Source of the DNA: an uncultured Pseudomonadota bacterium
Lineage (GTDB): Bacteria > Pseudomonadota > Gammaproteobacteria > Methylococcales > Methylomonadaceae
Reading direction: 5' to 3'
Length of the DNA stretch: 64,000 nucleotides
Assembly (NCBI GenBank): GCA_903889445.1
Contig: CAISXF010000044.1
Coordinates: forward strand, 1-64,000
Shown here: positions 24,483-41,653 of the stretch, one piece after another
How positions within the stretch are numbered: the first letter of the stretch is position 1
How the letters are laid out: each line of letters begins with the position of its first letter
The notes under the pieces: generated by a model
Told to the model about the DNA's origin: nothing
Database searches by the model: none
What the model saw: only the letters and a program-made list of their open reading frames with translations
Position numbers and translations under genes: made by a program

Positions 24483-25072
24483 TTTGCCGAATTTTTACTA
24501 TTTTTTTATTGCTGATTTTGAGCCATTCTGTTTTTGCAATTGATGCGAAAACCGATAATTCGTGGTGGGAAAAACGCAATCAAAAATCGGACGTTTATTA
24601 TCCGCACAACGCGCATTTAGACGTGATGAAACAAGAAGGTGACAGTTGTTTGCTGTGTCATTCTTACGCAAAATCGGATGTCGTGGATATTAAAAAATTG
24701 AAAAATTTAACTGTGATTGCGAATGAAGCGTTAAAACCGATTTGCCACAGTTGCCATGTTGATGAACAGCGTGCGCCTTGGCGTTGCGATATTTGCCACA
24801 CGGATAAAGAGCGCATTCAACCGCCCGACCATAAATTTGATTACAAAAATCATCACAACGAAGCCGCGCGAGGCAATGAAAAATACTGTGAAACGTGCCA
24901 CTTAGACGTGAATTTTTGCACCGATTGCCATTTGCGCCGTGACACGTCTGGCGCGGGTTATCATCCTTTAGGCTATCGAACGTTGCACGGTTTGGAAGCG
25001 CGTTTTGATTCGGCACGTTGCGGACGTTGCCACAATGAAAATTATTGCAGTGATTGCCATGCGACACGTTAA
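24479..25072 (+). CDS. Heptaheme c-type cytochrome
   Basis: A 197 aa periplasmic cytochrome. The ATG at 24479 overlaps the barrel gene stop (ATGA). The signal peptide ends SHSVFA. Seven CXXCH motifs (CLLCH, CHSCH, CDICH, CETCH, CTDCH, CGRCH, CSDCH) in about 175 mature residues give a very high heme density, with one heme per 25 residues, typical of wire-like electron carriers. Many extra His residues (DHKFDYKNHHNE) can be distal ligands. Size and density resemble a MtrA-type periplasmic partner, though MtrA has ten hemes. Confidence 0.9.
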   Translation: MICRIFTIFLLLILSHSVFAIDAKTDNSWWEKRNQKSDVYYPHNAHLDVMKQEGDSCLLCHSYAKSDVVDIKKLKNLTVIANEALKPICHSCHVDEQRAPWRCDICHTDKERIQPPDHKFDYKNHHNEAARGNEKYCETCHLDVNFCTDCHLRRDTSGAGYHPLGYRTLHGLEARFDSARCGRCHNENYCSDCHATR

Positions 25073-26063: not shown

Positions 26064-26974
26064 GAATTTTCTATTTTTTATGGCTGATTTGCAGTTTTGC
26101 CTTTGCCGACGAATCCACCGATTGGCAAACGCAATCCTATAAGCAATCAAAACATTTACCCGATTTGCATCACGCCGTTGATGTGAAATTGCTCGATGAA
26201 ATGCAACCGCCAGCGGAATTTGTTTTAAAAGAAGATAGAAAAATCGGTTGTAAAACCTGTCACGGTTTAGAAAAAATCGCCGAAACGCCTTACGACAAAA
26301 TTGATAAAAATGCGCCTGATTTTTTACGCAAAGACGGTTACAAAAAATTAGAAACGTTTTGTGCGAACTGCCACGATAAAAAAGCGCATGAACGTCCAAA
26401 CATTCATTTGATGCTCAACGATGACGGCACAATTAAAAAAGAAAACTGTTTGTTTTGTCACAGTGAAATCAACGAACAGCGCGAAAAACTACGTTTATTA
26501 GTGGATACCCATTTGCGTTTGCCAGTTGAAAAAGTGTGTTTAGGTTGTCATTTGAAAACGCCGCATTTCAACGCCGTTGAACACACTGATGCGAATTTGA
26601 AAGCGTTAGAACAATCGAAAAGTTCAGCGAAAAATATGAAAGCGCGTTTGAAAAAAACAGAAGATGAACAAGGCGTGCATTTGCCGTTATCAGAAAATGA
26701 TGAAGTGCTTTGTTTAACGTGCCATTCGCCACACGCAAAAGGGGTTTTAGGTGAAAAAAATCCTGCCAGTAATCAAGTAAATGGCGATATTAAAAAAGGT
26801 GTGGAATATGAAAAACACAGTTGGAACGAAGTCATGGAAGCCGATAAACACGAGCGTTTAGGAAAAACTGGCGATGTTTTGCCGCCTTATCAACGCCTGA
26901 AAAATGAAGTTTTACTGCGTTTGCCAGCAAAAGACGGCACGTTATGTTTGAGTTGTCATGAGTTTGAGAATTAA
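26060..26974 (+). CDS. Hexaheme c-type cytochrome
   Basis: A 304 aa exported protein beginning MRIFYFLWLICSFAFA at 26060, overlapping the previous stop (ATGA). Six CXXCH motifs: CKTCH, CANCH, CLFCH, CLGCH, CLTCH and CLSCH, the last four residues from the C-terminus. The pattern of paired motifs with HxxH-like spacing (CHSPHAKG, HLKTPHFN) is like doubled-CXXCH cytochromes. A Lys-rich charged helix separates the fourth and fifth hemes. Periplasmic electron transfer is inferred. Confidence 0.88.
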   Translation: MRIFYFLWLICSFAFADESTDWQTQSYKQSKHLPDLHHAVDVKLLDEMQPPAEFVLKEDRKIGCKTCHGLEKIAETPYDKIDKNAPDFLRKDGYKKLETFCANCHDKKAHERPNIHLMLNDDGTIKKENCLFCHSEINEQREKLRLLVDTHLRLPVEKVCLGCHLKTPHFNAVEHTDANLKALEQSKSSAKNMKARLKKTEDEQGVHLPLSENDEVLCLTCHSPHAKGVLGEKNPASNQVNGDIKKGVEYEKHSWNEVMEADKHERLGKTGDVLPPYQRLKNEVLLRLPAKDGTLCLSCHEFEN

Positions 26975-26977
26975 ACA

Positions 26978-28030
26978 ATGAAAAATCCCTTTAAAATAGC
27001 TTTGCAACGTTGGCGCGAAGTTCCGAAAGTTCAACGTTTTCGTTACACCACGATTTTTATTTCCTGCATTTTGTTTTTAACACCGCTTGCGATTTTGCCG
27101 AAACTCGCGGGAAACAGCGATTTATGTGGGCGTTTGTGTATGCGACGGTTTTATTTGTATTTTCCAAATATGTCGCTCGATGATTTTGCCACGCACGTTT
27201 CAGCGGCAATGATTGGCGTAATTGCATTCGGATTGATTTTATTGACGACATTATTTTTCGGGCGGATTTGGTGCGGTTATTTATGTCCAGTCGGTGGATT
27301 TAGTGAATTAGTCAGCCGCTTATTAAATGACCGTTGGAAAATCGAATACCGTTGGTTGCCGCAATTTCAAATTCGTTACAGCTATTTAGGAACGTATTTA
27401 ATTGTCTTGCCAGCCATTGGCGTGAGTGCGTGTACGTTGTGCAATTTTGTCACCGTGCCACGTTTAGTCGAAGCCATGTCAGGAGGCGCAGGTGGTTTAG
27501 CGTTTATTTTTTCTGCTGTGGGTTTGGTAAATTTATCGTTGCTTTTATTACTCGGATTTTTTTCAAGCAAAGGTCGAGCTTATTGCCAATTCATGTGTCC
27601 AATTGGCGCGATTGATGGCATTGTGAACAGTTTTGGCTCACGTTTTCGCAGTACGCATCGAATCCGCGTCGCAAAAGAACGTTGCACAGGTTGTAATGTT
27701 TGCGCGAGAAACTGTATGTGTGGCGCGATAAAAATGATTGATAAAGTCGCAGTCGTCGAACAATCCTCGTGCATGGATTGTCACGAATGCGTCGATGTTT
27801 GCGATTGGAACGCAATTGAATGGACAACTGCGTCACGTCATAAAGAACCTAAGCGCGTTAAAAAAGGCACAGAAATTTTCCCTGACCCCGATTGGCAAGT
27901 GATTACGTTTAAACCTCGTTTTGAACCCAAAGTCACGCCAGTTCAAACTATTTCATGGGCGCGAGTGATTAACGCGACGATGATTTTAGGATTTTTGACC
28001 GTGTTGACAATTACGGTGGTTGTGCATTGA
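26978..28030 (+). CDS. NapH-type 4Fe-4S membrane protein (putative quinol dehydrogenase)
   Basis: A 350 aa inner-membrane protein. It has several transmembrane helices and the two CX3CP motifs of the NapH/CcoG/NosR group (CGYLCPVGG, CQFMCPIGA), then two ferredoxin-type clusters (CTGCNVCARNC and CMDCHECVDVC). The CMDCH here is part of the second Fe-S motif, not a heme site. Family members pass electrons from the quinol pool to periplasmic multiheme cytochromes. A final helix near the C-terminus would place the tail back in the membrane. In this operon it is the natural entry point of electrons. Confidence 0.85.
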   Translation: MKNPFKIALQRWREVPKVQRFRYTTIFISCILFLTPLAILPKLAGNSDLCGRLCMRRFYLYFPNMSLDDFATHVSAAMIGVIAFGLILLTTLFFGRIWCGYLCPVGGFSELVSRLLNDRWKIEYRWLPQFQIRYSYLGTYLIVLPAIGVSACTLCNFVTVPRLVEAMSGGAGGLAFIFSAVGLVNLSLLLLLGFFSSKGRAYCQFMCPIGAIDGIVNSFGSRFRSTHRIRVAKERCTGCNVCARNCMCGAIKMIDKVAVVEQSSCMDCHECVDVCDWNAIEWTTASRHKEPKRVKKGTEIFPDPDWQVITFKPRFEPKVTPVQTISWARVINATMILGFLTVLTITVVVH

Positions 28031-29319
28031 TGAACCGTTTTAAATTTTTCTTTTTGGCGATATTGCTCATTTTCTGCAATGCCGCATTTGCTGATAAACG
28101 CCAACCTGATCCAGACGGTTGTTTTTCGTGTCACGGTTTGCCCGATTTGAAATATATTGATAAGCAAGGGCAAATTCGTTCGGCTTCGATTTTGAAATCC
28201 GATTATTACGGCTCGTTACATGGTTCGGTTCCGTGCAAAGATTGTCATCGAAAAATCACCGATTATCCTCATGAAGAAAAAGACGGTTTAGTCGATTGTG
28301 GCGAAAGTTGCCACGTCAAAGAACCTTCAAACGGCAAGGCTTTTACCCATAAAGATATTGCGAAAGAGTTTGAAAAATCGGCGCACGGCAAAGGTTTAAC
28401 GAAAGATTTTGCCGCTGGAAATCGCATTCAAGAAGACACAGATTCTGCGTTGCCATCGTGTCGGCGTTGTCACGATAACGCGCCGTATATTGCCGCCGTA
28501 CAAATGGACGCATTCAAAGCCGAATTTTCACACAACGACGCAGAATGCGGAACGTGTCACGAAGGCGAAGCGTGGCGCAACCAATTTAGCGGTCACATTT
28601 TGCGCCGTTACATTGGCAATCATTTGAACAAAAATGTGTCGAATAAAATTTGCATCGATTGTCACGGCAACATCGACAAAATGGCGAAAGTTGAGCAAGA
28701 AAATCCACAAACGAAAGAGAAAAAAGCGGTCAGTTTGGAGTTTATTCATTCAACCGAAAGTTACGACAAAACCTTACACGGGCGATTATTAGCAGATGGA
28801 AATTTACACGGCGCGTCCTGTGTTGAATGCCACGCGCCAACAGGTTTGCATCATGGTATTAAACGCGACGAAGATTCAGAATCGTCGGTGAATGCCGCGC
28901 ATCTTTCGCAAACGTGCGGGCAATCGAATTGTCACAAAGATTATTCCAAAAGCGTGGCGAATAATGGCTTTTTAAATTCAGAAATGCACGGCGTAGCGAC
29001 GCTCGGTTTAGGCGTTGAAACGAAAATTGAAGATGTTTTGAAACCCGATTTTGAATCGTTCAAAAAATTGTCGATTTGGTACAAATTAGCCGCGATTTTA
29101 GGTTTGTTTTCTAGCGTATTTTTCATTGGAAACATTGCGTGGAGTATTTTTGGTGATGATAAAAAATTGAACAAAAATAACAATAATTCGATTTTTGGCG
29201 CGGAGAAATTCCAACGCATTATCATCGGTTCAAAACCGAAAAAGAAAGAATCTTTGTGGACGAAAATCAAACAGCGGTTTGCGAAACCTGTTGCTAAAGA
29301 CGATGATAAGGCACTTTAG
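28030..29319 (+). CDS. Membrane-anchored octaheme c-type cytochrome with two atypical heme motifs
   Basis: A 429 aa exported protein whose ATG (28030) overlaps the NapH-like stop (TGATG). The signal peptide ends NAAFA. Six CXXCH motifs (CFSCH, CKDCH, CRRCH, CGTCH, CIDCH, CVECH) are joined by C-GES-CH and C-GQSN-CH, which have three and four spacer residues. A transmembrane helix near residues 345-365 (LAAILGLFSSVFFIGNIAWS) and a basic cytoplasmic tail anchor it in the inner membrane. A quinol-linked partner of the NapH-like protein is plausible. It is the last cytochrome before the defence island. Confidence 0.87.
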   Translation: MNRFKFFFLAILLIFCNAAFADKRQPDPDGCFSCHGLPDLKYIDKQGQIRSASILKSDYYGSLHGSVPCKDCHRKITDYPHEEKDGLVDCGESCHVKEPSNGKAFTHKDIAKEFEKSAHGKGLTKDFAAGNRIQEDTDSALPSCRRCHDNAPYIAAVQMDAFKAEFSHNDAECGTCHEGEAWRNQFSGHILRRYIGNHLNKNVSNKICIDCHGNIDKMAKVEQENPQTKEKKAVSLEFIHSTESYDKTLHGRLLADGNLHGASCVECHAPTGLHHGIKRDEDSESSVNAAHLSQTCGQSNCHKDYSKSVANNGFLNSEMHGVATLGLGVETKIEDVLKPDFESFKKLSIWYKLAAILGLFSSVFFIGNIAWSIFGDDKKLNKNNNNSIFGAEKFQRIIIGSKPKKKESLWTKIKQRFAKPVAKDDDKAL

Positions 29320-29343
29320 CTTATGCACTTTCAAGGAAAAATA

Positions 29344-32300
29344 ATGCTCAATCTGAACCAACTCCGCCAACACATTCAAGCCGCCAACTTTTCAAATCTT
29401 TTTTTGAATGAATTGGAATGGGATTATACAAATCTAACAAAGCCGATTGTTATTGGTGGTGCAACCTTAACAGCGATTGCTGAAAAACGTGGCTTTCAAA
29501 TTTTTATTTGTGAAATCACCGAATTGCCAACCGTGACGGAACGCAAAACCATCGCTCAAAAAATCGGCTCGCTTTATCACGAACATTTGATTATTTATTT
29601 CAACGCCGACAAACAAATCTGGCAAATCGCCGTTAAAGAACTCAACAAACCGATTCAATATAAAGAAATTGAATATCAAATTTCACGCGCTCCCGATTTG
29701 TTAATTTCAAAATTGCGCGGCATCTTTTTTACGTTTGATGAAGAGGAAAACATCCATTTAATCGATGTCACCGACCGCATCAATAACAGTTTCAACAGCA
29801 ACACCGAAAAAACGACTAAAAAGTTTTACGACCATTTCAAAAAACAACACGCCGCGTTTATGGCATTGATTCAAGGTTTGGAAAATGCCGATAATCAACG
29901 CTGGTATGCGTCGTTAATGTTGAATCGTTTGATGTTCATTTATTTTATTCAGAAAAAAGGCTTTCTCGATAACGACGTAAATTATTTGCGCGTGAAATTA
30001 AATCAGATTCAAAAAGCCCACGGCGATAATCAATTTTATTCATTTTATCGAAACTTTTTACTCGCGTTTTTTCATGACGGTTTGGGCAAAGAACACAAAA
30101 ATAATAAAGAACTCGTCGCGCTTATTGGCAACGTGCCGTATTTAAACGGCGGTTTGTTTGATGTTCATGAACTCGAAAAAGCTAACGCCGATATTCAAAT
30201 TGCCGATTCTGCTTTCACGCAATTGTTTGATTTCTTCGACCAATATCAATGGCATTTGGATAACAGCGCGAATGCCAAAGGCAACGAAATCAATCCCGAC
30301 GTAATCGGTTATATTTTCGAGAAATATATCAACGACCGCGCCGCAATGGGTGCGTATTACACCAAAGAAGACATCACCGAATACATCAGCAAAAACACCA
30401 TCATTCCATTTTTGTTTGACACCGTAAAAACCGAATGCGCCAACGCTTTCAAAGCCAACAGCAGTTTGTGGAATTTGTTGAAACAATCACCCGACCGTTA
30501 CATTTACGATGCCGTTAAAAAAGGCTGTGACGTTTTAGATATTCCTGAAAATATCGCAATCGGCATTGATAACGTCGCGCCAAACTTGTTGGAACGTCGC
30601 AAAAATTGGAATTCTCCAACACCTGAATTATTTGGTTTGCCAACCGAAATTTGGCGCGAAACCATCGCCCGACGTGAACGCTATTTTGAACTCAAAACCA
30701 AATTGGAAAATGGCGAAATAACCGAACTCAACGATTTTATTACCCACAATTTAAACATTCGCCAATTCGCCCAAGACGCTCTCGAATTCTACGAAGGCTC
30801 GGATTTTGTCGAAGCGTTTTATAACGCCATCGTCAACATTACCGTTCTCGACCCAACCTGCGGAAGTGGCGCGTTCTTATTCGCCGCACTCAACATTTTA
30901 GAACCACTTTACGAAACCTGCATCAAACGAATGCGCGAATTTATCGACCACGCGCCACTCAATCGATTCGCCAATTTTCGTTTGGTTATTGCCGACATCG
31001 ACAAACATCAACATCCCACTTATTGGATTTACAAAAAAATTATTCTCAATAATCTTTACGGCGTGGACATCATGCCCGAAGCCGTTGAAATCGCTAAATT
31101 ACGCCTGTTTTTGAAACTCGCGGCAATGGCAGAAGCCAATTATGACAAACCCAATCTCGGTTTAGAACCACTGCCCGATATTGATTTTAATATCCGTTGC
31201 GGCAATACGCTCATCGGTTACACCACCCATCAACAAATCAAAACCGCCATCGAATGCGACATTAACGGGCAAGTGAAAATGGTGGTCGATGATTCGATGG
31301 TTTTAATCGACGGCATGATTGAAGAATTACAAGGCGTTTTGCGCGGCTATAAAGCAAATCAATTGCTCAATAATTCCGTCGGATTGCACGCCGATAAACA
31401 AAACATTAAAGACCGTTTGGCGGAAATCAAAGAATCGTTAGATTTCTTTTTGGCGCGTGATTATGGCATCGATAACGAAAAATTCGCCGCCTGGAAATCG
31501 TCGCATCAACCGTTTCATTGGTTCACCGAATTCTTTCATATCATCAATAACGGCGGCTTCGATGTCATTATTGGCAATCCACCTTATGTCGAATACTCGA
31601 AAGTGAAAGGCGATTATCTGATTAAAAATTATGAAACCGAAAGCTGTGGGAATTTGTATGGTTTTGTTATGGAATTGAGCTACCGAGTTCTAAACAAAAA
31701 AGGTTTGTTTGGAATGATTATTCCAATCAGCGCATTTTCAAATAAAAGCATGGAAACGTTACAACAGTTTTTAAAAAATGTTCCATTGTCATTTATTTCA
31801 AATTTTCATCAACGTCCAGCCGCTCTTTTTGACGGGGTTTTACAACGATTATCGATATTCATCGGCTACAAAGAACATGAAACAAAATCAGCTTTATCAA
31901 CGCCAGTTTTCCGATGGAAATCAGAAACGCGGAATTTTTTGTTTTCGAGTATTTTTTATGTGGAATCAGAACAACGACAAAATAATTCGTTAAAAATAGG
32001 TTCAAGTATCGAAGTTCAGATATTAGAAAAGTATTTGAATCACAAACCGATTAGCGATTTAACTGAAAACAAAAAAATGGTTAGCGAAAACAAAATTTAT
32101 TACAGAACAGCAGGCGGCGGTTATTGGGTTACGATTTTAAACAGCTCTTTTGATACAACTTCGTTAAGCAATAAAGGTGCAGCATTTCAAAGTAAATGCG
32201 ATGCAAAAGTTATATCGGCGGTGTTAAATTCAAACTTTTTTTGGTGGTATTACACAATCAATTTCGACCAGTTTAATTTTAAAGATTACATGATTTTTGG

Positions 32301-32580
32301 CTTTCAATTTAATTACCCGACGGATAAAGAACTTATTGAAAAATTGAGTAATTTATCAAACCAACTGGAAACAGAATTGTTAAAAAATTCGACTCGCTAC
32401 GTTATAAACAGTAAAACGCGAGGAAGCAATGAAACGATAACGTACAACAAATTTCTGTCTAAAAACACGATGGACGAAATAGACAAAGTGCTTGCCGCGC
32501 ATTATGGCTTTACCGATGAAGAGCTGGATTTTATTATCAATTACGATATTAAATATCGCATGGGCAAAGAATTGGATTGA
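29344..32580 (+). CDS. Eco57I-like N6-adenine DNA methyltransferase (type IIG/DISARM-like)
   Basis: A 1078 aa protein. The AdoMet motif I is DPTCGSGAFLFAAL near residue 503 and the catalytic motif IV is GNPPYVEYSK near 745, the arrangement of gamma-class N6-adenine methylases of the Eco57I/type IIG group. The N-terminal third is an unassigned alpha/beta region without an obvious PD-(D/E)XK site. The last third resembles a TaqI-like target-recognition domain. An AAGGA site favours the ATG at 29344 over one at 29323. It starts 24 bases after the cytochrome stop. With the PLD-SNF2 helicase downstream it probably forms a restriction or defence module. Confidence 0.82.
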   Translation: MLNLNQLRQHIQAANFSNLFLNELEWDYTNLTKPIVIGGATLTAIAEKRGFQIFICEITELPTVTERKTIAQKIGSLYHEHLIIYFNADKQIWQIAVKELNKPIQYKEIEYQISRAPDLLISKLRGIFFTFDEEENIHLIDVTDRINNSFNSNTEKTTKKFYDHFKKQHAAFMALIQGLENADNQRWYASLMLNRLMFIYFIQKKGFLDNDVNYLRVKLNQIQKAHGDNQFYSFYRNFLLAFFHDGLGKEHKNNKELVALIGNVPYLNGGLFDVHELEKANADIQIADSAFTQLFDFFDQYQWHLDNSANAKGNEINPDVIGYIFEKYINDRAAMGAYYTKEDITEYISKNTIIPFLFDTVKTECANAFKANSSLWNLLKQSPDRYIYDAVKKGCDVLDIPENIAIGIDNVAPNLLERRKNWNSPTPELFGLPTEIWRETIARRERYFELKTKLENGEITELNDFITHNLNIRQFAQDALEFYEGSDFVEAFYNAIVNITVLDPTCGSGAFLFAALNILEPLYETCIKRMREFIDHAPLNRFANFRLVIADIDKHQHPTYWIYKKIILNNLYGVDIMPEAVEIAKLRLFLKLAAMAEANYDKPNLGLEPLPDIDFNIRCGNTLIGYTTHQQIKTAIECDINGQVKMVVDDSMVLIDGMIEELQGVLRGYKANQLLNNSVGLHADKQNIKDRLAEIKESLDFFLARDYGIDNEKFAAWKSSHQPFHWFTEFFHIINNGGFDVIIGNPPYVEYSKVKGDYLIKNYETESCGNLYGFVMELSYRVLNKKGLFGMIIPISAFSNKSMETLQQFLKNVPLSFISNFHQRPAALFDGVLQRLSIFIGYKEHETKSALSTPVFRWKSETRNFLFSSIFYVESEQRQNNSLKIGSSIEVQILEKYLNHKPISDLTENKKMVSENKIYYRTAGGGYWVTILNSSFDTTSLSNKGAAFQSKCDAKVISAVLNSNFFWWYYTINFDQFNFKDYMIFGFQFNYPTDKELIEKLSNLSNQLETELLKNSTRYVINSKTRGSNETITYNKFLSKNTMDEIDKVLAAHYGFTDEELDFIINYDIKYRMGKELD

Positions 32581-32582
32581 AT

Positions 32583-32704
32583 GTAGGGGCGTGGGTTTAT
32601 CCCCGCCCTCATTACGGCATTTTATCAATTGCAAATTATCAATTATCAATTGCAAACATCCCGTAATCAGGGCGACAGGGCGACCACAAGGGTACGCCCG
32701 TACC
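32583..32704. repeat. Paired-hairpin REP-like element, copy 3, at the 5' side of the transposase
   Basis: The outer ends are GTAGGGGCG and CGCCCGTAC. The left hairpin is GGGGCG-TGGGTTTAT-CCCCGCC and the right one is GGGCGACC-acaag-GGTACGCCC. The middle contains TCAATTGCAAATTATCAATT-type AT repeats and a CATTACGG/CCGTAAT pair. Directly after it AAATATG is repeated tandemly. Confidence 0.7.
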
Positions 32705-32747
32705 AAATATGAAATATGAAATATGAAATATGTGAAATCGGAAAATT

Positions 32748-33416
32748 ATGACCTACAACCCAGACATCCATCATCGCCGTTCGATTCGCCTGAAAGGATA
32801 CGATTATTCGCAGGCAGGATTATATTTTGTGACGATTTGCACGCATTACAGTTTGCCGTTATTTGGCGAAATTATTAAAGGTGAAATGATTTTGAATGCG
32901 GCGGGAATGATGATTCAAAATCAGTGGCGTGAAATAAATCAGCGTTTTTTGTCAGTTGTTTTGCATGAAAGTATCGTGATGCCGAATCATTTTCACGCGA
33001 TTATTGAATTGGTAGGGGCAAACCCTTGTGGTTGCCCTGCTTCTGATAACGAAACAAACGAAATGAGTGAAATTTTTGCTGATAAAACGGCAGAATTCGT
33101 TGATAAAAGGGCAGAATTTATTGATAAAAGGGCAGGGACAAGCCCCGCCCCTACGATTGGTGATATTGTTGGTGCGTTTAAATCATTAACAACAAATGAA
33201 TACATCAAAAACGTAAGACAAAACAATTGGCAATCTTTTGAGAAAAGAATTTGGCTCCGTAATTACCACGAACACATTATTCGGGATGAGAATTCGTATG
33301 TAAAAATTTCAAATTATGTTCAAACAAATCCGCAAAAATGGCAGGAAGATTGTTTTTTTGAGGACGTGAAAGTGGCGGCGATGTTGGAGTTTAGGAAGTT
33401 AGCGTTGTGCGTTTAA
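32748..33416 (+). CDS. REP-associated tyrosine transposase (Y1/TnpA-REP, RAYT)
   Basis: A 222 aa HUH endonuclease of the Y1 family. The start RRSIRLKGYDYSQAGLYFVTICT is diagnostic. The metal-binding HUH is in VMPNHFHAIIEL, and the catalytic Tyr lies in a helix near the end (RIWLRNYHEHIIRDENSYVK). RAYTs process single-stranded REP hairpins and spread them. The centre of this copy (about residues 89-135) is encoded by a REP-like element plus a 21-base tandem repeat, which lengthens the loop between HUH and Tyr; activity is uncertain. The next gene starts inside its 3' end. Confidence 0.88.
   Translation: MTYNPDIHHRRSIRLKGYDYSQAGLYFVTICTHYSLPLFGEIIKGEMILNAAGMMIQNQWREINQRFLSVVLHESIVMPNHFHAIIELVGANPCGCPASDNETNEMSEIFADKTAEFVDKRAEFIDKRAGTSPAPTIGDIVGAFKSLTTNEYIKNVRQNNWQSFEKRIWLRNYHEHIIRDENSYVKISNYVQTNPQKWQEDCFFEDVKVAAMLEFRKLALCV
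33012..33154. repeat. Paired-hairpin REP-like element, copy 4, inside the transposase gene
   Basis: The ends are perfect inverted GTAGGGGC and GCCCCTAC. The left hairpin is GGGGCAAACC-cttgt-GGTTGCCCT, and the right arm is GGGCAGGGACAAGCCCCGCCC. It lies in frame within the coding sequence. Confidence 0.75.
33081..33138 (+). repeat. 21-base tandem repeat, nearly three copies
   Basis: Units GATAAAACGGCAGAATTCGTT, GATAAAAGGGCAGAATTTATT and a partial GATAAAAGGGCAGG encode DKTAEFV/DKRAEFI/DKRAG. It lies between the two hairpins of REP-like copy 4. Confidence 0.75.
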
Positions 33417-33712
33417 CACCATTTCAACAACAAACGATTCACCAAAATGCGTGCCGTTATTTTGGTGAATTGACGCAGGTTTGGTTATTTGGTTCGCGGG
33501 TTGACGATGATAAACGAGGCGGTGATATTGACCTTTATATTGAACCTGAAAATCAAGAAATCGCGGCATTAGCGTTGGCAAAATTGCACTTTTTACGCGC
33601 GTTGCATTCGGCGTTGGGTGAACAAAAAATCGACGTGGTTTTACGTCCAAAAACTGCAAAAGCGTTACCCATTTATGAAATCGCCAAAGAAACAGGAATC
33701 GAACTGAAATGA
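33407..33712 (+). CDS. MntA-like nucleotidyltransferase antitoxin
   Basis: A 101 aa minimal nucleotidyltransferase. The core LFGSRVDDDKRGGDIDLYIEP holds the GS and the D-x-D metal ligands, and a third Asp is in KIDVVLRP. In MntA/HepT pairs the nucleotidyltransferase AMPylates or otherwise neutralises the HEPN toxin. The start is a GTG at 33407 overlapping the transposase stop by 10 bases; no ATG fits the fold. Its stop overlaps the next gene (ATGA). Confidence 0.85.
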   Translation: MRLTPFQQQTIHQNACRYFGELTQVWLFGSRVDDDKRGGDIDLYIEPENQEIAALALAKLHFLRALHSALGEQKIDVVLRPKTAKALPIYEIAKETGIELK

Positions 33713-34167
33713 ATCAACCGATAATTGAAATTTTAAAAATCTGTGACCGTCACGCCGACCGATTAAATTGGGCGATGACGGAATTACAACCGCATTTTCC
33801 ATTATCAGCCACGAGTTTGGGGGATTTAACGGATTTAGAAATCGCGGTTTTAGACCAATTTTCAACGCGCTTTGGCAAATTACAAGACGCGATGGGCGCA
33901 AAATTATTTCCTGTGATTTTGGAATTAACGAAAGAACAAGGCGAACTCAAAGCCTTTATCGACAAATTAAATCGGCTTGAAAAAATTGGCGCGATTGAAT
34001 CGGCGGACGATTGGTTACTTTTGCGCGAAGTTCGGAATGCGTTTTCACACGATTACCCCGACGATTTGGAATTGCAGGCGAGCGTTTTAAATCAGGCGTA
34101 TCAATTAGCGCGTGATTTGCTGACGGTTTTTGAAGGTGTAAAAACCTTTGCGGCGACTTATTTGTAA
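33709..34167 (+). CDS. HepT-like HEPN toxin (putative RNase)
   Basis: A 152 aa all-helical protein with the HEPN active-site motif R-x4-H-x-Y in LLREVRNAFSHDYPDD near residue 110. HEPN proteins paired with MNT nucleotidyltransferases are RNases of the HepT type. The overlap with the antitoxin gene and the antitoxin-first order fit the family. It is followed 2 bases later by the helicase gene, so the pair is embedded inside the defence module rather than standing alone. Confidence 0.8.
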   Translation: MNQPIIEILKICDRHADRLNWAMTELQPHFPLSATSLGDLTDLEIAVLDQFSTRFGKLQDAMGAKLFPVILELTKEQGELKAFIDKLNRLEKIGAIESADDWLLLREVRNAFSHDYPDDLELQASVLNQAYQLARDLLTVFEGVKTFAATYL

Positions 34168-34169
34168 TT

Positions 34170-37100
34170 ATGCCCACAATTTACGATAACATCGAAAACG
34201 TCCTCGGTGACGAACTCAAAAATGCTTTTGAAACGGCGTATAAAGCCGATTTGTGCGTGGGTTATTTTAATTTGCGCGGTTGGACGACGTTTGCAAAAGA
34301 TGTAGATAATTTTGCAGGCGGTGACGACGCGCAATGTCGCTTGATTATTGGCATGCAGCCAACGCCGCAACAGCTTATCAAACACCGTTACGCCAAAAAT
34401 CCCCCGTCGTTAATGGATAATCAAACCGCGCACGGTTTGAAACGTGAATTGGCGGAAGATTTTCGCACGCAATTAACGGTTGGTTTTCCCAAAAATACGG
34501 ACGAAACGACGTTAAAACAACTCGCTGAACAATTACGCGCAAACAAATTAAAAATCCGATTATTCGTGGCGCATCCGTTGCACGCGAAATTATATTTGAT
34601 TCATCGACACGACAAATTTAGTCCGATTTTGAGTTATTTAGGTTCAAGTAATTTGACGTTTTCAGGCTTGAGCGCACAAGGTGAATTAAACGTTGATATT
34701 CCCGATAAAGATGCGGCGACTAAATTGGTTGATTGGTTTGAAGCGCGTTGGAATGCGCGGTTTTGTTTGGACATTAGCCAAGAGCTAATCGACATCATCG
34801 ACGAAAGTTGGGCGATGCCAAAATTGCCGTATTACATTTATTTGAAAATGGTCTATCACTTATCAAGCGAAGTCCGCGAAGGTTTTAGTGAGTTCAAAAT
34901 CCCCTATATTTTTCAAAAAGAATTGCTCGCATTTCAAGCCGAAGCCGTGAAAATCGCCGCGCATTATGTGACCAAACGAAAAGGCGTGTTAATCGGCGAC
35001 GTGGTGGGATTAGGCAAAACGATGACGGCGACGGCGTTAATCAAATTATTCGATGAAGATTTTGGGTTTGAAACGCTGATTTTATGCCCGAAAAACTTAA
35101 CGCAAATGTGGGAAGATTACGCGCATCGTTACGGGATTAGCCGCGTGAAAGTGTTATCGCAAAGTCGCGCCATCAAAGAATTGCCGAATTTGCGTCGTTA
35201 CCGTTTAGTCGTAATTGACGAAAGCCACAATCTTCGCAACCGCGACGGCAAAATTTACAAAGCGATTGCCGATTACATTCACCGCAACCACAGCAAAGTC
35301 GTGTTACTTTCGGCAACGCCTTATAACAAATCTTACGCAGATTTGTCGGGACAATTGGCGTTGTTTATCGATGACGAAGAGGATTTAGGCGTTTCGCCCG
35401 AAACCTATATTCGTGAAATGGGCGGACACGATGAATTTAAATCGCGGTTTCAAACCTCGCCGCGTGCATTATCGGCGTTTAATAAAAGCCCACACGCGGA
35501 TGATTGGCGCGAATTGATGCGGCTATTTTTGGTACGTCGAACGCGCGGCTTTATCAAAAAACATTATTCGATTTTTGATGACGAAAAACAGCGTTATTAC
35601 CTCGAATTCTCGAATGGCACGCGCAATTACTTTCCTAATCGCATCGCAAAAAAAGTCGAATATCCGTTCAATGAACACGATAAAAATGACCCTTACGCGC
35701 AACTGTATTCGGAAACGATTGTTGAAATTATCGACCAACTAAATTTGCCGCGTTACGGTTTATTGGATGATTTGAACGCGAATTTGAAAACGCCCGCAAC
35801 CGTTGCCGAACAAGGCGTGATTGAAAATTTAACACGCGCAGGAAAACGTTTGAAAGGCTTTGCGCGAACCAATTTATTCAAGCGTTTGGAAAGTGGTGGC
35901 GAAGCGTTTTTATTGTCGATTTATCGTCATATTATGCGAAACGCTTTGTTTAGTTACGCACTGAAAAATGAATTTGAAATCCCAATTGGACAACAAGAAA
36001 GTGCGTTGCTCGACAGTTTTATTACCGACGAAACGGATTTAGAAAGCGGTGATTTTGAGATTACCTTTCATTCTGACCTCGAAAAATACGAATCGGATGC
36101 CGCGATAATTTATGAACAAATCAAAACGACGCAATTTAAAAAGTTTGATTGGTTGCGAAGCGATTTATTTAACGAAAATTTGGCTTTAAAACTCACTGCC
36201 GACAGCGAAGCGTTGAATTACATTTTGCAAAAAGTGCCGCAATGGCTGCCTGAAAATGACCGTAAATTACAAGCGTTGCGCGAGTTAATCGCCGTCACAC
36301 ATTCGGACGAAAAGATTTTGATTTTTACTCAATTCGCTGACACCGCAGATTATTTGGAACGTTATTTTAAAAAATTAGGTGTGCGTGAATTGGCGGGCGT
36401 GACGGGTAAAAACAAAAATCCGACTGAAATTGCGTGCCGTTTTAGCCCAAAAAGTAATCAACACAAAATCAAACCCGAAGACGAATTGCGAATTTTAATC
36501 ACGACCGACGTGTTGAGCGAAGGGCAGAATTTGCAAGACGCGCATATTGTGGTGAATTACGATTTGCCGTGGGCGATTATTCGGCTGATTCAACGTGCGG
36601 GGCGGGTTGACCGCATCGGGCAAAAAGCAGAAACGATTTTGTGTTATTCGTTTCTGCCCGAAGAAGGCGTTGAAAAAATTATCAAACTTCGCACGCGCCT
36701 CATGCAACGCATTGAGCAAAATGCCGATGTCGTGGGTTCTGACGAACAATTTTTTGATGGCGACCCCGTGAGCCTTCACGATTTTTACAGCGAAAAAAAT
36801 AACATTTTCGACGAATACGAAGACGAAGAAATCGATTTGCCGTCATTCGCTCAACAAATTTGGAATGACGCGATTGCCGCGAATCCAAAGTTAAAAACGA
36901 TTATTCCGAATTTGCCGAACGTGGTTTATAGCGCGAAATCGGCGACTGAAAAACAGAAAACGGGCGTGATTGTCTATGCGAAAACCGCGAATGATAACGA
37001 CCTTTTAACGTGGTTGAACGATAACGGCGACATTATTACGCAATCACAATTTGCAATTTTAAATGCGGCGGCATGTTCAATCGATACGCCGCGTGCGCCC

Positions 37101-37487
37101 CGTTCCGAAAATCATCATGAATTGATTTCGCAAAATATGACACGCATTCACCAAATGGATTCGCACGTTGGCGGGCAATTGGGCAAAAAAAATAGCACTC
37201 GTTATCAAATCTATCATCGTTTAAAAACCTATTGTGAATTTTATGCGGGCGACATTTTTCTCGATGAAAATGTGAAAAAAGCGATTGATGATATTTATAA
37301 ACATCCTTTGCATGAAATGGCGCGTGAAAGTTTGTCGCGGCAACTGAAAACGGGAACAAATGACGTGAATTTGGTGGATTTAGTTTTGCATTTGCGCGAG
37401 GAAAGTAAATTGTCGCGTTTTGCTTATAAAAATAATGACGAAACGTTTGAACCAAGCGTAATTTGTTCGCTGGGAGTTGTGAAATGA
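34170..37487 (+). CDS. PLD-domain SNF2-type helicase (defence-associated)
   Basis: A 1105 aa protein. The N-terminal part has a phospholipase-D-like nuclease motif (HPLHAKLYLIH near residue 135, then GSSNLTFSGL), which in related proteins cuts DNA. Helicase motifs follow: Walker A GDVVGLGKT near 276, DESHN near 350, SATPYNK near 381, and motif VI QRAGRVDRIGQ near 807. Such fused PLD-SNF2 proteins are paired with N6 methylases in restriction-like systems, and DISARM uses separate SNF2 and PLD proteins. Its stop codon overlaps the start of the next cytochrome gene by the sequence ATGA. Confidence 0.85.
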   Translation: MPTIYDNIENVLGDELKNAFETAYKADLCVGYFNLRGWTTFAKDVDNFAGGDDAQCRLIIGMQPTPQQLIKHRYAKNPPSLMDNQTAHGLKRELAEDFRTQLTVGFPKNTDETTLKQLAEQLRANKLKIRLFVAHPLHAKLYLIHRHDKFSPILSYLGSSNLTFSGLSAQGELNVDIPDKDAATKLVDWFEARWNARFCLDISQELIDIIDESWAMPKLPYYIYLKMVYHLSSEVREGFSEFKIPYIFQKELLAFQAEAVKIAAHYVTKRKGVLIGDVVGLGKTMTATALIKLFDEDFGFETLILCPKNLTQMWEDYAHRYGISRVKVLSQSRAIKELPNLRRYRLVVIDESHNLRNRDGKIYKAIADYIHRNHSKVVLLSATPYNKSYADLSGQLALFIDDEEDLGVSPETYIREMGGHDEFKSRFQTSPRALSAFNKSPHADDWRELMRLFLVRRTRGFIKKHYSIFDDEKQRYYLEFSNGTRNYFPNRIAKKVEYPFNEHDKNDPYAQLYSETIVEIIDQLNLPRYGLLDDLNANLKTPATVAEQGVIENLTRAGKRLKGFARTNLFKRLESGGEAFLLSIYRHIMRNALFSYALKNEFEIPIGQQESALLDSFITDETDLESGDFEITFHSDLEKYESDAAIIYEQIKTTQFKKFDWLRSDLFNENLALKLTADSEALNYILQKVPQWLPENDRKLQALRELIAVTHSDEKILIFTQFADTADYLERYFKKLGVRELAGVTGKNKNPTEIACRFSPKSNQHKIKPEDELRILITTDVLSEGQNLQDAHIVVNYDLPWAIIRLIQRAGRVDRIGQKAETILCYSFLPEEGVEKIIKLRTRLMQRIEQNADVVGSDEQFFDGDPVSLHDFYSEKNNIFDEYEDEEIDLPSFAQQIWNDAIAANPKLKTIIPNLPNVVYSAKSATEKQKTGVIVYAKTANDNDLLTWLNDNGDIITQSQFAILNAAACSIDTPRAPRSENHHELISQNMTRIHQMDSHVGGQLGKKNSTRYQIYHRLKTYCEFYAGDIFLDENVKKAIDDIYKHPLHEMARESLSRQLKTGTNDVNLVDLVLHLREESKLSRFAYKNNDETFEPSVICSLGVVK

Positions 37488-38266
37488 AGAAACTTTTTTT
37501 ATTTTTAATGATGTGGCAACCTGTATTTGCAGAGGAAATATCCTTGCATCAACAACAAATTGAAAACGCTGCGCCGAATCAAACGGCAATTGATTTTTCG
37601 GCAAAAAAACTGCGCGAACACAAGGATATTGAGATTCACGAAAAACTGATTATTCCGCCGTTTCATAAACAAACAGGCGAACTTGAAACCGCGCCACAAA
37701 GTTTTTGCCGAACCTGCCACACGCCGTTGCCGCATGAAAAAGCGTTGCGAACGCGCACATTTAATAATATGCACGTTCGTTTTATTGCCTGTGAAACGTG
37801 CCATGTTGCAAATGAAAAACTAACTTATCGTTGGTTTGATTTTGAAAATCAAAAACAGCTTTCAGGCGAAAATTTGTTCCGAATTGGTAAAAATATCGAT
37901 AACGAAAACCCACGTCCGACCAATCCGAAAATTGCGCCATTTTTGAATGATTCACGGATTTTTTTGTTGAAAAGTGACGAGTTTGCCGAACAAATCGCTG
38001 CGACGTGGAAAACGGCGAATGAATCCGAAAAAGCGATTTTACACGCGAAAATTCACGCGCCTTTGAATTGGCAAAAAGGTGAAAAAACGCATCAAGGCAC
38101 GCCTTGCGAAGAATGTCACAACGATAAAAAATCAAAACTCGATTTACCAAAATTGGGTGCGAATTCGGAACAGGTTCAAGCGATTCAAACGCACATTATT
38201 CCGCGCTTTTTACAGCATTATAAAAACGATGACCAACGGATTACTATTCGTGAAATGCTACGTTAA
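37484..38266 (+). CDS. Triheme c-type cytochrome
   Basis: A 260 aa exported protein with signal peptide MKKLFLFLMMWQPVFA. The three heme motifs are CRTCH (about residue 71), CETCH (about 105) and CEECH (about 210). It starts at ATGA across the helicase stop. The first two hemes lie in a compact part (TCHTPLPHEKALRTRTF... HVRFIACETCHV); the rest is helical and charged. It resumes the cytochrome series after the defence island. Confidence 0.85.
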   Translation: MKKLFLFLMMWQPVFAEEISLHQQQIENAAPNQTAIDFSAKKLREHKDIEIHEKLIIPPFHKQTGELETAPQSFCRTCHTPLPHEKALRTRTFNNMHVRFIACETCHVANEKLTYRWFDFENQKQLSGENLFRIGKNIDNENPRPTNPKIAPFLNDSRIFLLKSDEFAEQIAATWKTANESEKAILHAKIHAPLNWQKGEKTHQGTPCEECHNDKKSKLDLPKLGANSEQVQAIQTHIIPRFLQHYKNDDQRITIREMLR

Positions 38267-41129
38267 GTTATTTTTGGTGATTTTTTTATGGCTGATTTTT
38301 GCCAATTCGCACGCGGTAGAAATTACCGCGCAACGTGTTTTGGCGGCGAATTTACAACAACCTGTGGGCGTTTCGGTTTCCGCTGAAAAACCGATTTTTG
38401 TAGATTCCGCAGGTTTGCATTTTGAAAATGCCATTGTTGAAACTGAAAGCGTGGCGTTAAGTATTTTCGCTTATAAAAACGAAATTTGGTCGGCGAATCC
38501 AATCAAACGCGAACTTTCACGCTTCGATAATTCGGGCAAACTCACCAAGAAAATCGATGTTTCGCAAACCGCTGAAAGTAAAAATCCGCACGAACCTGTA
38601 GCAATTGCGGTTTATGAAGACGTGATTTATTGGGCAGATCGCGCCAATCATCGAGTTTGCCGTTTTGATTTAGTGAAAAATTCGGCGTTACCGTGTTTTG
38701 GCAAACGTGGCGAAATGGACGGCGAATTTCAATATCCGTATCAAATGGCATTCGACCGCGACGGCTATTTATATGTTGTCGATATTATGAATTCGCGCAT
38801 TCAACAATTCGATAAAAACGGGCGTTTCTTTTCAACAATCGGCACATTCGGCACGGATAAAAACACGTTATTTCGTCCAAGCGGCATTGCGATTGACACA
38901 AAAACCGATTTGTTATTTGTCAGCGACAGCTATTTTGGCTCAATTAAAGTGTTTAAAAATGGCGAAGTGTTGGGCGAATTGACTGACCAAAACGGCAAAT
39001 CGTTGATTTTAAAATCACCGACTTCGTTGGCCTTTCAAAATGGAAAATTGTTAATTGCTGAAACGCTTGGAAATCAAATTGTTGAATTTTCAATCAATCC
39101 AAAATTCTCACAACCTGCGAAAAATAACGCTGCGCCTGTTGAACCGTCACAAAAAAATTGTTTAGCGTGTCATTTATCTTGGGTGAAAGAAACTGCAAAA
39201 TCGGATGCAAAAGGCGAGTTGCCCGATGCGTCATTTGCGATGTGTTACAGCTGCCACAATGGCGCGATGGTCGATTCACGTTTGCGAATTGGCGCGAATA
39301 AACAACACGCGAGCGTTTACGATGATGAAAAATTGAACAAAGAACGTTTTGTTGAAAAACGCGCTGATAAATTGCCCAACAATTTCCCGCACGGGGAGCA
39401 TAACGCCTTGAATTGTGCGACTTGCCACACGCCACACACTAAATCCCCCCCAGCCCCCCTTTCAAAGGGGGGAGAAATTTTAGCAAACGAAACGCTTTAC
39501 AAAGAACACGGAAATGCGTGGCTGCGTGTGCCGAATAAAAACGGTGATTTGTGCGAAAAATGCCACGAATCAAAAGGCAAAAATGCGCGTGAAAAAGAAG
39601 CGAAAAATCGCGGTGTAAATCATCCGTTAGCCATTAAATTAGCAATGCCGCCCGAAAAAAATGCGCTCAGTTTTGCGACAGAATTGAAATTACAACAACA
39701 CGGTTTGCCGAATTCTCTTTTAAAAAATGGCGGCGTTTTAGGTAATCAAAACGAAATGCTGTGCCAAACCTGCCACCAAATTCATGGCGGTTTTGATAAC
39801 AGCGCGTTGACGGTTTTGGAAAATGAAAAAGCCTCGCTTTGTTTAGAATGTCACGAGCGGCAAAATTCTGAAAACGAAAAAGACGCTCATAAAAAAGGCG
39901 TGCATCCTGTCAATATCAAACCTGACCCCAAAAAACACCCAAAACCGATGCAAAAAGACGGTAAAAATGTTGAGTTTGTCAGTTGTGAAACGTGTCACGT
40001 TGTTCATGATGGGAAATTAGGTTCGGCGTTGCTTGAGAAAAAATATCCCACTTCGGATGCACTTTGTGAAACCTGCCACGATAAACAAGCCGCGAAAAAT
40101 AAAGACGACGCGCGTCACAAAGGCATTCATCCAACCAATATAAAACCTGATGAACCAATGAAACAAAACGACAAAGACGTGAAATTTGTAACGTGTCAAA
40201 GTTGCCACAATGTTCATTCGGGAAATTCAGAAACGGCGTTGCTCGACAAAGGTATTAAAGATGCGGAATCGTTGTGCAAAACCTGTCATCAACGCCAACA
40301 CGCCAGAGATAAAGATGAGGCTCACGCGAAAGGCGTTCATCCTGTGAACGTAAAAATGGACGAGGAAGTTGAAATTGTCGCGGGTAAAAAAACGCGCGAA
40401 ATCGGTTGTTTAACCTGTCACGCGGTGCATGACGGCAAACCCGATACGCCTGCGCTGGTTGAAAATCATCAAAACGGCGAATTGTGTTCACATTGTCATC
40501 AAGGCAAACAGGCGATTGTGGGAAGTGACCACGATTTGCGAATCACGGCGCAAAATAAACCAAATCAATTTAACGAAAAAGCCGCGCAAAGCGGCGTGTG
40601 TGGCGCGTGTCACAGTTTGCATAAAGCCGATAAAAATCCGCCGCATTTGTTTTCGACAAAATCAGTCGTTGAAGATTTTACCGACAAAGAATTGCAACAC
40701 AGCGAATTGCGCGAGGATAAACTTTGCATTTTGTGTCATCAAAAAAATGGCATTGCCGAAAAGAAAATCGTGAAGTTTTTTAATCATCCGCACGAAGATA
40801 TGACGTTGCGTTCGGATAAAAAAATCATGCCGCTTTTGAATTCAAAAGAAAAAATCGACGACTTCGGACAAATCGCGTGTAAAACCTGTCACGAGCCACA
40901 TTTTTGGAGCGCGAAAATTAGTCAAAATGCGCTGCAATCGAAACCAAAATCGATTTTATCGCTGGGGCAAACGGAGAATGTCGAAGGTTCGCCGCTGAAT
41001 AGTTTTCTGCGAACGGAAGGCGTGAAAGGCACGTTTTGCGTGGATTGTCATGGCATGAATGCCTTGCCAAAATTCAAATTTTTTCACGATAAAGAAAAAG
41101 TCCGTGAAATTGTGGATTATGTGCAATGA
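38229..41129 (+). CDS. NHL beta-propeller fused to a 16-heme c-type cytochrome
   Basis: A 966 aa exported protein; the ATG at 38229 overlaps the previous gene by 38 bases, and a GTG at 38250 (MKCYVKLFLVIFLWLIFANSHA) is an equally good start. Residues about 30-290 are NHL-type repeats (FQYPYQMAFDRDGYLYVVD, FRPSGIAIDTKTDLLFVSDS, LKSPTSLAFQNGKLLIAE). Then come 16 CXXCH motifs in doubled-CXXCH units of about 75 residues sharing KGVHPVNIK. A C-rich palindrome at 39441-39473 is inserted in frame after the third heme (KSPPAPLSKGG). The propeller may dock a partner or the surface while the heme string carries electrons. Confidence 0.88.
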   Translation: MTNGLLFVKCYVKLFLVIFLWLIFANSHAVEITAQRVLAANLQQPVGVSVSAEKPIFVDSAGLHFENAIVETESVALSIFAYKNEIWSANPIKRELSRFDNSGKLTKKIDVSQTAESKNPHEPVAIAVYEDVIYWADRANHRVCRFDLVKNSALPCFGKRGEMDGEFQYPYQMAFDRDGYLYVVDIMNSRIQQFDKNGRFFSTIGTFGTDKNTLFRPSGIAIDTKTDLLFVSDSYFGSIKVFKNGEVLGELTDQNGKSLILKSPTSLAFQNGKLLIAETLGNQIVEFSINPKFSQPAKNNAAPVEPSQKNCLACHLSWVKETAKSDAKGELPDASFAMCYSCHNGAMVDSRLRIGANKQHASVYDDEKLNKERFVEKRADKLPNNFPHGEHNALNCATCHTPHTKSPPAPLSKGGEILANETLYKEHGNAWLRVPNKNGDLCEKCHESKGKNAREKEAKNRGVNHPLAIKLAMPPEKNALSFATELKLQQHGLPNSLLKNGGVLGNQNEMLCQTCHQIHGGFDNSALTVLENEKASLCLECHERQNSENEKDAHKKGVHPVNIKPDPKKHPKPMQKDGKNVEFVSCETCHVVHDGKLGSALLEKKYPTSDALCETCHDKQAAKNKDDARHKGIHPTNIKPDEPMKQNDKDVKFVTCQSCHNVHSGNSETALLDKGIKDAESLCKTCHQRQHARDKDEAHAKGVHPVNVKMDEEVEIVAGKKTREIGCLTCHAVHDGKPDTPALVENHQNGELCSHCHQGKQAIVGSDHDLRITAQNKPNQFNEKAAQSGVCGACHSLHKADKNPPHLFSTKSVVEDFTDKELQHSELREDKLCILCHQKNGIAEKKIVKFFNHPHEDMTLRSDKKIMPLLNSKEKIDDFGQIACKTCHEPHFWSAKISQNALQSKPKSILSLGQTENVEGSPLNSFLRTEGVKGTFCVDCHGMNALPKFKFFHDKEKVREIVDYVQ
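39441..39473. repeat. C-rich palindromic element inside the 16-heme gene, copy 2
   Basis: AAATCCCCCCCAG then CCCCCC-TTTCAAA-GGGGGG. It is translated in frame as SPPAPLSKGG. It has the same structure as the elements at 25524 and 53033. Confidence 0.75.
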
Positions 41130-41653
41130 CCAAACCCGAACCACGTTTGTTGATGGCGTTGCCGATTATGTTGATTGTGCTTTTGGGCGCAATGTACGGT
41201 TATGGTTTGACCTACGACCCGAATAAAAGCCCGTCGCGGTTAATCGGCAAAAAAATTCCTGCAATAAATTTACCCGCGTTAGAAAATACTGCAATCATTT
41301 TAAACAGCGCGAATTTTAAAACGCCTGCGTTAATAAATGTGTGGGCTTCGTGGTGCGCGGCGTGTCGCGCAGAACATGAATTTTTAAAACAACTCGCTGC
41401 CGATGGTGTGACAATTTACGGTGTGGATTATCAAGATGATTTAGAAAATGCGCGGGCGTATTTGAAACAAAATGGCAATCCATTTGCTGCGATTATGTTT
41501 GATGGTGCGATGGCAAGCGCGATGCCGTTGGATATACAGAGTTTGCCGCAAACGTATTTGATTGGTAAAAATGGAATTATTCGCGCTCGACATATTGGCG
41601 CATTAACGCCTGACGTGTGGCAAACTATGCAAAAAAATAGACAACAAAATTAA
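41126..41653 (+). CDS. CcmG/DsbE-like thioredoxin (paralogue of ccmG)
   Basis: A 175 aa membrane-anchored thioredoxin-fold protein. An N-terminal anchor (LLMALPIMLIVLLGAMYGYGL) is followed by the CcmG-type YDPNKSPSRLIGKKIPAINLP and the active site WASWCAACRAEHEFL; the cis-Pro loop is QSLPQTYLI. Proteins of this type reduce apocytochrome thiols before heme attachment. A second one (45827) sits at the usual ccm position, so this copy may serve the multiheme proteins. It overlaps the 16-heme gene stop (ATGA). Confidence 0.85.
   Translation: MTKPEPRLLMALPIMLIVLLGAMYGYGLTYDPNKSPSRLIGKKIPAINLPALENTAIILNSANFKTPALINVWASWCAACRAEHEFLKQLAADGVTIYGVDYQDDLENARAYLKQNGNPFAAIMFDGAMASAMPLDIQSLPQTYLIGKNGIIRARHIGALTPDVWQTMQKNRQQN

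Follow-up and report, generated by a model that had tools for sequence, protein, structure and literature searches.

A propeller-headed multiheme cytochrome encoded in a conserved methanotroph operon, a candidate periplasmic electron wire

How aerobic methane oxidizers stay active without oxygen is an open question, to which the export of electrons is a leading answer. We analyzed a 64,000-nucleotide stretch of DNA (the window; contig CAISXF010000044.1, positions 1 to 64,000, of GenBank assembly GCA_903889445.1) from an uncultured bacterium of the Methylomonadaceae, in which gene I encodes an NHL propeller fused to a 16-heme c-type cytochrome. The closest described system is the putative MCA0424 operon of Methylococcus capsulatus (Bath), which comprises eleven genes, including those of eight multiheme cytochromes with 58 CXXCH motifs and of the beta-barrel protein MCA0427 (PMC4831470). 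This operon is repressed by copper and induced at low copper, its products MCA0424 and MCA0426 were found at the cell surface, and a function in electron export was suggested (PMC4831470). M. capsulatus makes an anodic current, which is lowered by deletion of the gene for a neighboring surface cytochrome, MCA0421 (PMC6281684).

Gene order and heme pattern suggest that the window holds an operon of the MCA0424 type. Both contain genes for multiheme cytochromes (eight in Bath) and a barrel gene, a putative one in the window, with an Fe-S protein in the Bath region, and PKD-domain cytochromes of the c553o type lie alongside both the MCA0424 operon and the fused-type operon (PMC4831470, PMC517821). 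The match of the heme sums rests on G254, a genome of the same order, in which eight cytochromes (7+7+7+8+6+6+3+14 = 58 hemes) follow PKD c553o-like genes. The seven operon cytochromes of the window, by comparison, carry 53 CXXCH motifs in sum, with one heptaheme A gene instead of two and with a restriction island that interrupts the operon. By its position and by the heme sum, the fusion is most likely MCA0433, the eighth cytochrome of the operon as counted from Table 1 of PMC4831470; 14 hemes occupy that place, versus 16 in gene I. The operon was apparently published from MCA0424 on, and the NHL fusion goes unmentioned there: MCA0433 is described in PMC4831470 simply as a multiheme c-type cytochrome, and the term "NHL" is absent from that paper.

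The Uet cluster of "Candidatus Tenderia" and Gallionella, a multiheme extracellular electron transfer (EET) cluster, resembles the window operon in combining NHL proteins (UetHI), a barrel (putative in the window), and triheme cytochromes (PMC10734462). Its NHL proteins and the undecaheme cytochrome UetJ are listed apart, whereas the window operon lacks an 11-heme gene and has its NHL part fused. Six-bladed or NHL propellers are also encoded among multiheme cytochromes in Desulfovibrio ferrophilus, as separate proteins in contrast to gene I (PMC9769857, PMC8322314), and stand-alone NHL or propeller proteins are encoded beside multiheme genes in Geoalkalibacter (PMC12016550) and Dethiobacter (PMC10376724). 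We found no description of an NHL-multiheme cytochrome fusion in the open-access literature searched, as far as its texts were accessible.

The MtrAB, MtoAB, and PioAB systems, together with an MtrAB-type cluster named in 2026 in a Methylobacter bioanode (PMC13322032), likewise pair a barrel with a multiheme cytochrome, as an electron-export conduit in a methanotroph. Methylobacter metagenome-assembled genomes from a bog lake contain OmbB-OmaB-OmcB-like genes and unassigned porin-cytochrome genes (PMC6344600). The MtrB/PioB porin profile (PF11854) matched neither the gene B product nor the other operon proteins scanned, and the DmsE/MtrA profile (TIGR03508, cut-off 192.2 bits) gave 73.6 bits for gene I, 45.3 for gene D, and 20.9 for gene E. 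Membership of gene I in the MtrA/DmsE family was rejected on this score. Elsewhere in the window's genome (contig C80, 86898 to 90236), a gene for an MtrB/PioB porin adjoins one for a DmsE/MtrA decaheme cytochrome (440 bits for PF11854, its sole match in the genome, and 283 bits for TIGR03508, both above the cut-offs); neither profile had a match over its cut-off in 14 control genomes. At least this one Methylobacter-like genome thus seems to encode two separate candidate conduits, the operon and MtrAB.

Propeller head, heme units, and origin of the fusion

The presence of an NHL propeller and 16 CXXCH motifs in one polypeptide, as first read from the sequence, was confirmed by profile searches. 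The Pfam NHL family (PF01436, cut-off 20 bits) matched the whole gene I protein with an E value of 3.4e-8 and the propeller stretch alone with 4.1e-11 (33.5 and 42.8 bits), and the heme part matched Paired_CXXCH_1 (PF09699; E 1.3e-29, 102 bits, cut-off 20.6) and TIGR01905 (78.6 bits, cut-off 25.2). The motifs start at residues 311, 339, 396, 442, 512, 538, 586, 613, 656, 683, 727, 753, 791, 833, 884, and 937, whereas 2,000 shuffled versions of the protein averaged 0.06 such motifs and never contained more than 2. A propeller had been proposed for residues 30 to 290, and AlphaFold2 bore this out: its model of residues 31 to 290 contains 24 strands arranged in six four-stranded blades, with a predicted local distance difference test (pLDDT) score of 64 to 90 per ten-residue block and of less than 50 for residues 208 to 213. 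In a structural search, the model fitted best with the NHL domains of TRIM3 and TRIM2 (Z 30.5 and 30.2, 2.5 to 2.6 Å over 248 residues, with 2.5 Å for TRIM3), followed by the designed six-bladed Pizza6-SFW (2.2 Å over 235 residues), and the PknD sensor (Z 27.0); the list of hits was filled by propellers and carries no information on the heme part. These six-bladed propellers (TRIM2/3/71, Brat, the PknD sensor, and Pizza6) share the fold of the gene I head but, unlike gene I, have no joined c-type cytochrome in the entries matched. The cysteine pair C144/C156 is invariant in 21 of 21 fused propellers and unconserved in six split and six lipoprotein relatives, and perhaps forms a disulfide. The start codon of gene I is either ATG 38229 or GTG 38250, the latter being the point at which the open reading frames (ORFs) of diverged homologues in loci L009 and L010 open. 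The signal-like start and the gene context both suggest that the product is exported to the periplasm.

The doubled units noticed in the sequence hold for the middle eight hemes, the first four and the last four being irregularly spaced. The linker KGVHPVNIK occurs exactly once, accompanied by the two variants KGIHPTNIK and KGVHPVNVK, and the general form KG.HP.N.K is carried by the first three of the four doubled units. Both ends of the protein keep a nearly constant heme spacing across the family (about 31-58-35-69 in the head and about 26-38-42-51-50 in the tail), and it is mainly the number of middle units, each of about 70 residues and two hemes, that varies: 2, 3, 4, 5, or 6 units give proteins with 12, 14, 16, 18, or 20 hemes. 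Neighboring units within one 20-heme protein are up to 77% identical (16 proteins compared), indicating that two-heme units were copied in tandem. The lone odd count among tail-bearing pieces, 15 hemes, belongs to a contig-edge piece (L018, genome G205), in which one heme motif of the head is missing (spacing 28, 95). Fixed ends and a variable middle are what would be expected of a chain that has two contact ends and an adjustable reach and along which electrons may flow.

In six genomes (G355, G404, G409, G432, G436, and G609), a separate propeller ORF lies beside the cytochrome gene. Searches with separate profiles of the two halves found, in all six, that the ORF with the best propeller match immediately precedes the one with the best heme-part match; the split cytochrome has 18 to 24 hemes in the four complete loci and at least 12 in the two that run off the locus. 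In a tree of 36 propellers rooted on NHL lipoproteins, the 22 fused propellers form one clade (100/100), to which the six split propellers are the sister clade (98/97). One fusion or one fission would explain this topology, and fusion is the simpler account because the outgroup propellers stand alone. Since the propellers of the sister clade adjoin a separate polyheme cytochrome gene, the event would have joined neighboring genes. Propeller and heme-part distances of 21 fused proteins are correlated (r 0.83, with no value as high in 5,000 permutations), indicating that the two parts have evolved together since they were joined; one sequence, L052, has a long branch and odd composition in both the tree and this comparison. 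The trees and comparisons exclude near-identical sequences (L002 to L004, L006, and L007), the broken L008 copy, and most fragments at contig edges. By description alone, the split loci, with 11-heme, 3-heme, NHL, and 24-heme genes, look closer to Uet than the fused ones do (PMC10734462). In other gammaproteobacteria (L065 to L070 and L072 to L075), the gene for a 5-heme cytochrome of about 250 residues immediately precedes that for an NHL protein of about 365 residues, with a lipobox in four of the six NHL proteins tested.

Conservation of the operon and distribution of the fusion

Gene I closes a nine-gene operon (A to I; Table 1), the order of which is kept in most loci examined, in and outside the Methylococcales. 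The order B to I is shared by 14 of the 15 fused-type loci compared, a set in which gene I is broken in L008 and the contig end cuts L082, and to which L087 does not belong. In L081 and L082 (G446 and G374), both outside the Methylococcales, a single ORF spans genes F and G, a sign that their products act together at the inner membrane. Where 600 or more bases of upstream sequence are available, gene H immediately precedes the fusion at 21 of 25 distinct loci; the fused ORFs for this count were found by a simple pattern that misses L052, L055 to L057, L081, and L082. In L025, L026, and L028, an H-like piece (by eye) is only 0.6 to 0.9 kb from the fusion. The 6-heme (G) and triheme (H) genes overlap by four bases in L003 to L010; among L002 to L010, only L002 shares with the window the 8.2-kb island that separates them. 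In the window, H probably starts at ATG 37484, and the start of the CcmG/DsbE gene overlaps the gene I stop by 4 bases.

The gene A product is probably located at the cell surface, as its domain match suggests. Among the sequence tests run, only aromatic content favors a barrel for gene B (13% for gene B and 13 to 17% for the set formed with four homologues, versus 4 to 9% in five other proteins). The gene F product is a relative, not a member, of the NapH/MauN quinol dehydrogenase subunits, its match covering positions 5 to 254 of the 255 of TIGR02163 and falling short of the cut-off of 213 bits. The PKD-domain cytochrome gene upstream of the operon looks, by eye, like those that occupy the c553o position next to the operon of G254 and of G239.

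The fusion was first described as unusual, a view that did not survive the survey of its own group. Within the family, a match (E ≤ 1e-20) is present in 35 of 237 genomes and 10 of 29 genera, some of these matches being contig-edge pieces that show part of the protein; across the order, 31 of 201 sampled genomes have one (E ≤ 1e-30). Of 369 genomes sampled across the class, seven contain the complete fusion (G000, which is the window's own, G239, G377, G374, G446, G513, and G621). None of 397 other genomes sampled thinly per lineage across the phylum matches at E ≤ 1e-40, none of 106 pattern matches in viral contigs is a relative of the fusion, and 72,556 plasmid records contain no match (E ≤ 1e-20). 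The matches in the family thus rule out a one-off fusion, and the recurrence of the architecture in many independent genomes rules out an artefact of joined reading frames. Carriage by phages or plasmids was dismissed on the viral and plasmid searches, and a wide distribution in the phylum on the phylum-wide sample, thin as it is. Two genomes (G233 and G144) have two matching places each, on different contigs, and may contain second copies; G521 was left unclassed, its heme fragment lying at the edge of one contig and its propeller on a second contig. In L008 (8630 to 11502) and L017 (G206), the fusion is broken by stops or frameshifts, reflecting decay or assembly error.

Weighing a role in electron export

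We consider it probable, with a good deal of room for doubt, that the gene I product is an exported periplasmic electron wire with a propeller as its docking head, within a quinol-driven export conduit. A docking module joined to a wire is the best reading because of the gene context, the change of wire length in whole units, and the split form in relatives. The host, whose genome has a gene of the PmoA/AmoA family, is very probably a Methylobacter-like methanotroph. Quinol from methane-derived metabolism would be oxidized at the inner membrane by F and the membrane-anchored 6-heme protein G, and electrons would pass from F-G to H and I in the periplasm. The gene I product would carry them to an outer-membrane complex formed by the putative barrel B with C, D, or E, from which surface cytochrome A and the PKD cytochromes would make the final transfer to Fe(III), humics, or another cell. 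As a docking surface, the propeller may hold one end of the wire at a partner, the fusion doing covalently what the separate neighboring propeller protein does in relatives. Gain or loss of a 70-residue unit would then change the reach of the wire and leave both ends untouched. The likely use would be to dispose of electrons under a shortage of oxygen, or of copper for copper oxidases, and gene I may in this way help methane eaters to keep working when oxygen is scarce.

Several observations weigh against this proposal. The best barrel match (OMP_b-brl, E 0.024) is weak and was obtained with a homologue of gene B (L079), the AlphaFold2 model of the gene B product has a pLDDT of 29.5, and beta-strand alternation is not significant in gene B and four homologues (lag-2 z of -0.5 to 1.5). 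In the AlphaFold2 model of gene I, which drew on nine similar sequences and contains no heme, pLDDT is less than 50 throughout the heme part, from residue 294 onward, and the model thus does not establish a linear wire shape. The MCA0433 transcript showed the smallest rise among the eight cytochromes, only 2.3-fold, and mass spectrometry did not detect the protein (PMC4831470). Gene I is dispensable, since 202 of the 237 family genomes, some of them incomplete, have no match. Its link to the operon is not absolute either: a pair resembling a toxin-antitoxin system (by eye) lies between H and I in L026 (3797 to 4458) and L028 (3939 to 4477), and the fusion of L087 (G303, a 9-kb contig) has neither H nor any other operon gene in the 5.9 kb upstream. 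These loci, like L025 and the double matches of G233 and G144, leave our estimate unchanged because most loci keep the gene order.

Electrons could instead flow inward. The operon would then take up electrons supplied by Fe(II), a partner cell, or a reduced surface, and these would reach the quinone pool or an oxidase through the wire. Multiheme porin conduits may run both ways, and NapH-type proteins contact the quinone pool, which counts for this direction. Uet, with its stand-alone NHL proteins, also comes from a cathode-oxidizing group (PMC10734462). We regard inward flow as unlikely, since the M. capsulatus relative has been linked to anodic current and to Fe(III) reduction with formate (PMC6281684) and a methane oxidizer has no evident need of an inorganic donor. 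A surface role, with the propeller binding a mineral, a polymer, or a cell and the heme string conducting at or beyond the surface, appears slightly less probable again. For NHL proteins near EET clusters, binding of mineral nanocrystals has been suggested (PMC12016550), as has help in secreting and orienting surface cytochromes (PMC10376724), and two M. capsulatus operon products are at the surface (PMC4831470). MCA0433 is absent from the surface proteins detected in that study (PMC4831470); gene I has no lipobox (by eye) and no PKD domain of the kind found in surface c553o proteins, and its position beside H and ccm genes fits the periplasm.

With sixteen hemes, the protein could also be a periplasmic electron store or buffer and not a wire fixed at both ends; PCC3 cytochromes have been proposed to store electrons (PMC10734462), and the heme number varies freely between species. 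This is improbable, because a near-constant head and tail around a changing middle are the outcome expected of two docking ends and because storage has no need of a propeller. Least probable of all, and by our estimate very much so, is a role in assembly, in which the propeller would aid the maturation or placement of the operon cytochromes and electron carriage would be secondary. The overlap of gene I with the CcmG/DsbE gene speaks for it, as does the proposal that cluster NHL proteins mediate the assembly of multiprotein complexes (PMC10376724), but a dozen or more kept heme sites make a costly scaffold, and in G119, G146, and G236 other ORFs stand in the place of ccmG.

If the periplasmic wire is the correct interpretation, the protein would represent an unnamed family of propeller-headed periplasmic wires, derived from one NHL-cytochrome fusion, with a reach set by 70-residue two-heme repeats (12 to 20 hemes) and operating in a quinol-driven export conduit that can accompany MtrAB in methanotrophs. 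We advance this broader proposal tentatively, at slightly less than even confidence. The analysis ties the propeller-polyheme family to a conserved operon, and the proteins with 12, 14, 16, 18, and 20 hemes offer a natural length series of one wire for testing heme chains that span the periplasm.

Coordinates and accompanying elements

Table 1. Features of the operon region, in window coordinates
Feature	Position	Strand	Basis or remark
PKD-domain cytochrome, 8 CXXCH	15981..19748	-	
Gene A, heptaheme cytochrome, MtrC/MtrF-like domain match	20076..22724	+	PF22113, E 1.1e-9
Gene B, putative outer-membrane beta-barrel, weak identity	22899..24482	+	Position corresponds to MCA0427 (PMC4831470)
Gene C, 7-heme cytochrome, 197 aa	24479..25072	+	
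Gene D, 8-heme cytochrome	25005..26063	+	
Gene E, 6-heme cytochrome	26015..26974	+	
Gene F, NapH/MauN-like membrane Fe-S protein	26978..28030	+	TIGR02163, 79 bits
Gene G, 6-heme cytochrome, C-terminal membrane helix (residues 348-366)	28027..29319	+	
Restriction-modification/defense island, outside the system	29323..37487	+	Splits the operon between G and H
Gene H, triheme c-type cytochrome	37463..38266	+	Overlaps gene I by 38 bases
Gene I, fused NHL propeller and 16-heme c-type cytochrome	38229..41129	+	966 aa
Gene I, putative N-terminal signal peptide	38229..38315	+	Hydrophobic stretch; no lipobox by eye
Gene I, six-bladed NHL propeller (residues 31-293)	38319..39107	+	AlphaFold2, fold search, PF01436
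Gene I, head, hemes 1-4 (residues 311-446)	39159..39566	+	Spacing near-constant across family
Dispersed G+C palindrome between hemes 3 and 4	39452..39473	+	Inside gene I ORF
Gene I, four doubled-CXXCH units, hemes 5-12, of 74, 70, 71, and 64 residues	39762..40598	+	
Gene I, tail, hemes 13-16 (residues 791-941)	40599..41051	+	Heme-spacing comparison
CcmG/DsbE thioredoxin (cytochrome c maturation)	41126..41653	+	TIGR00385, 142.8 bits (cut-off 123)

The island between genes G and H contains a type IIG restriction-methylation gene (PADLOC, E 3.5e-302), a transposase-like ORF, a PLD-SNF2 helicase gene, and, by eye, a small nucleotidyltransferase/HEPN-like pair. The stretch of gene I with the palindrome is a gap in 10 of the 12 rows of alignment A1. 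G+C-rich palindromes of the CCCCCCTTNNNAAGGGGGG type occur at 8 places in the genome with at most 1 mismatch; those at 39452 to 39473, 25526 to 25544, and 53035 to 53053 sit in three ORFs, all of which are still open.

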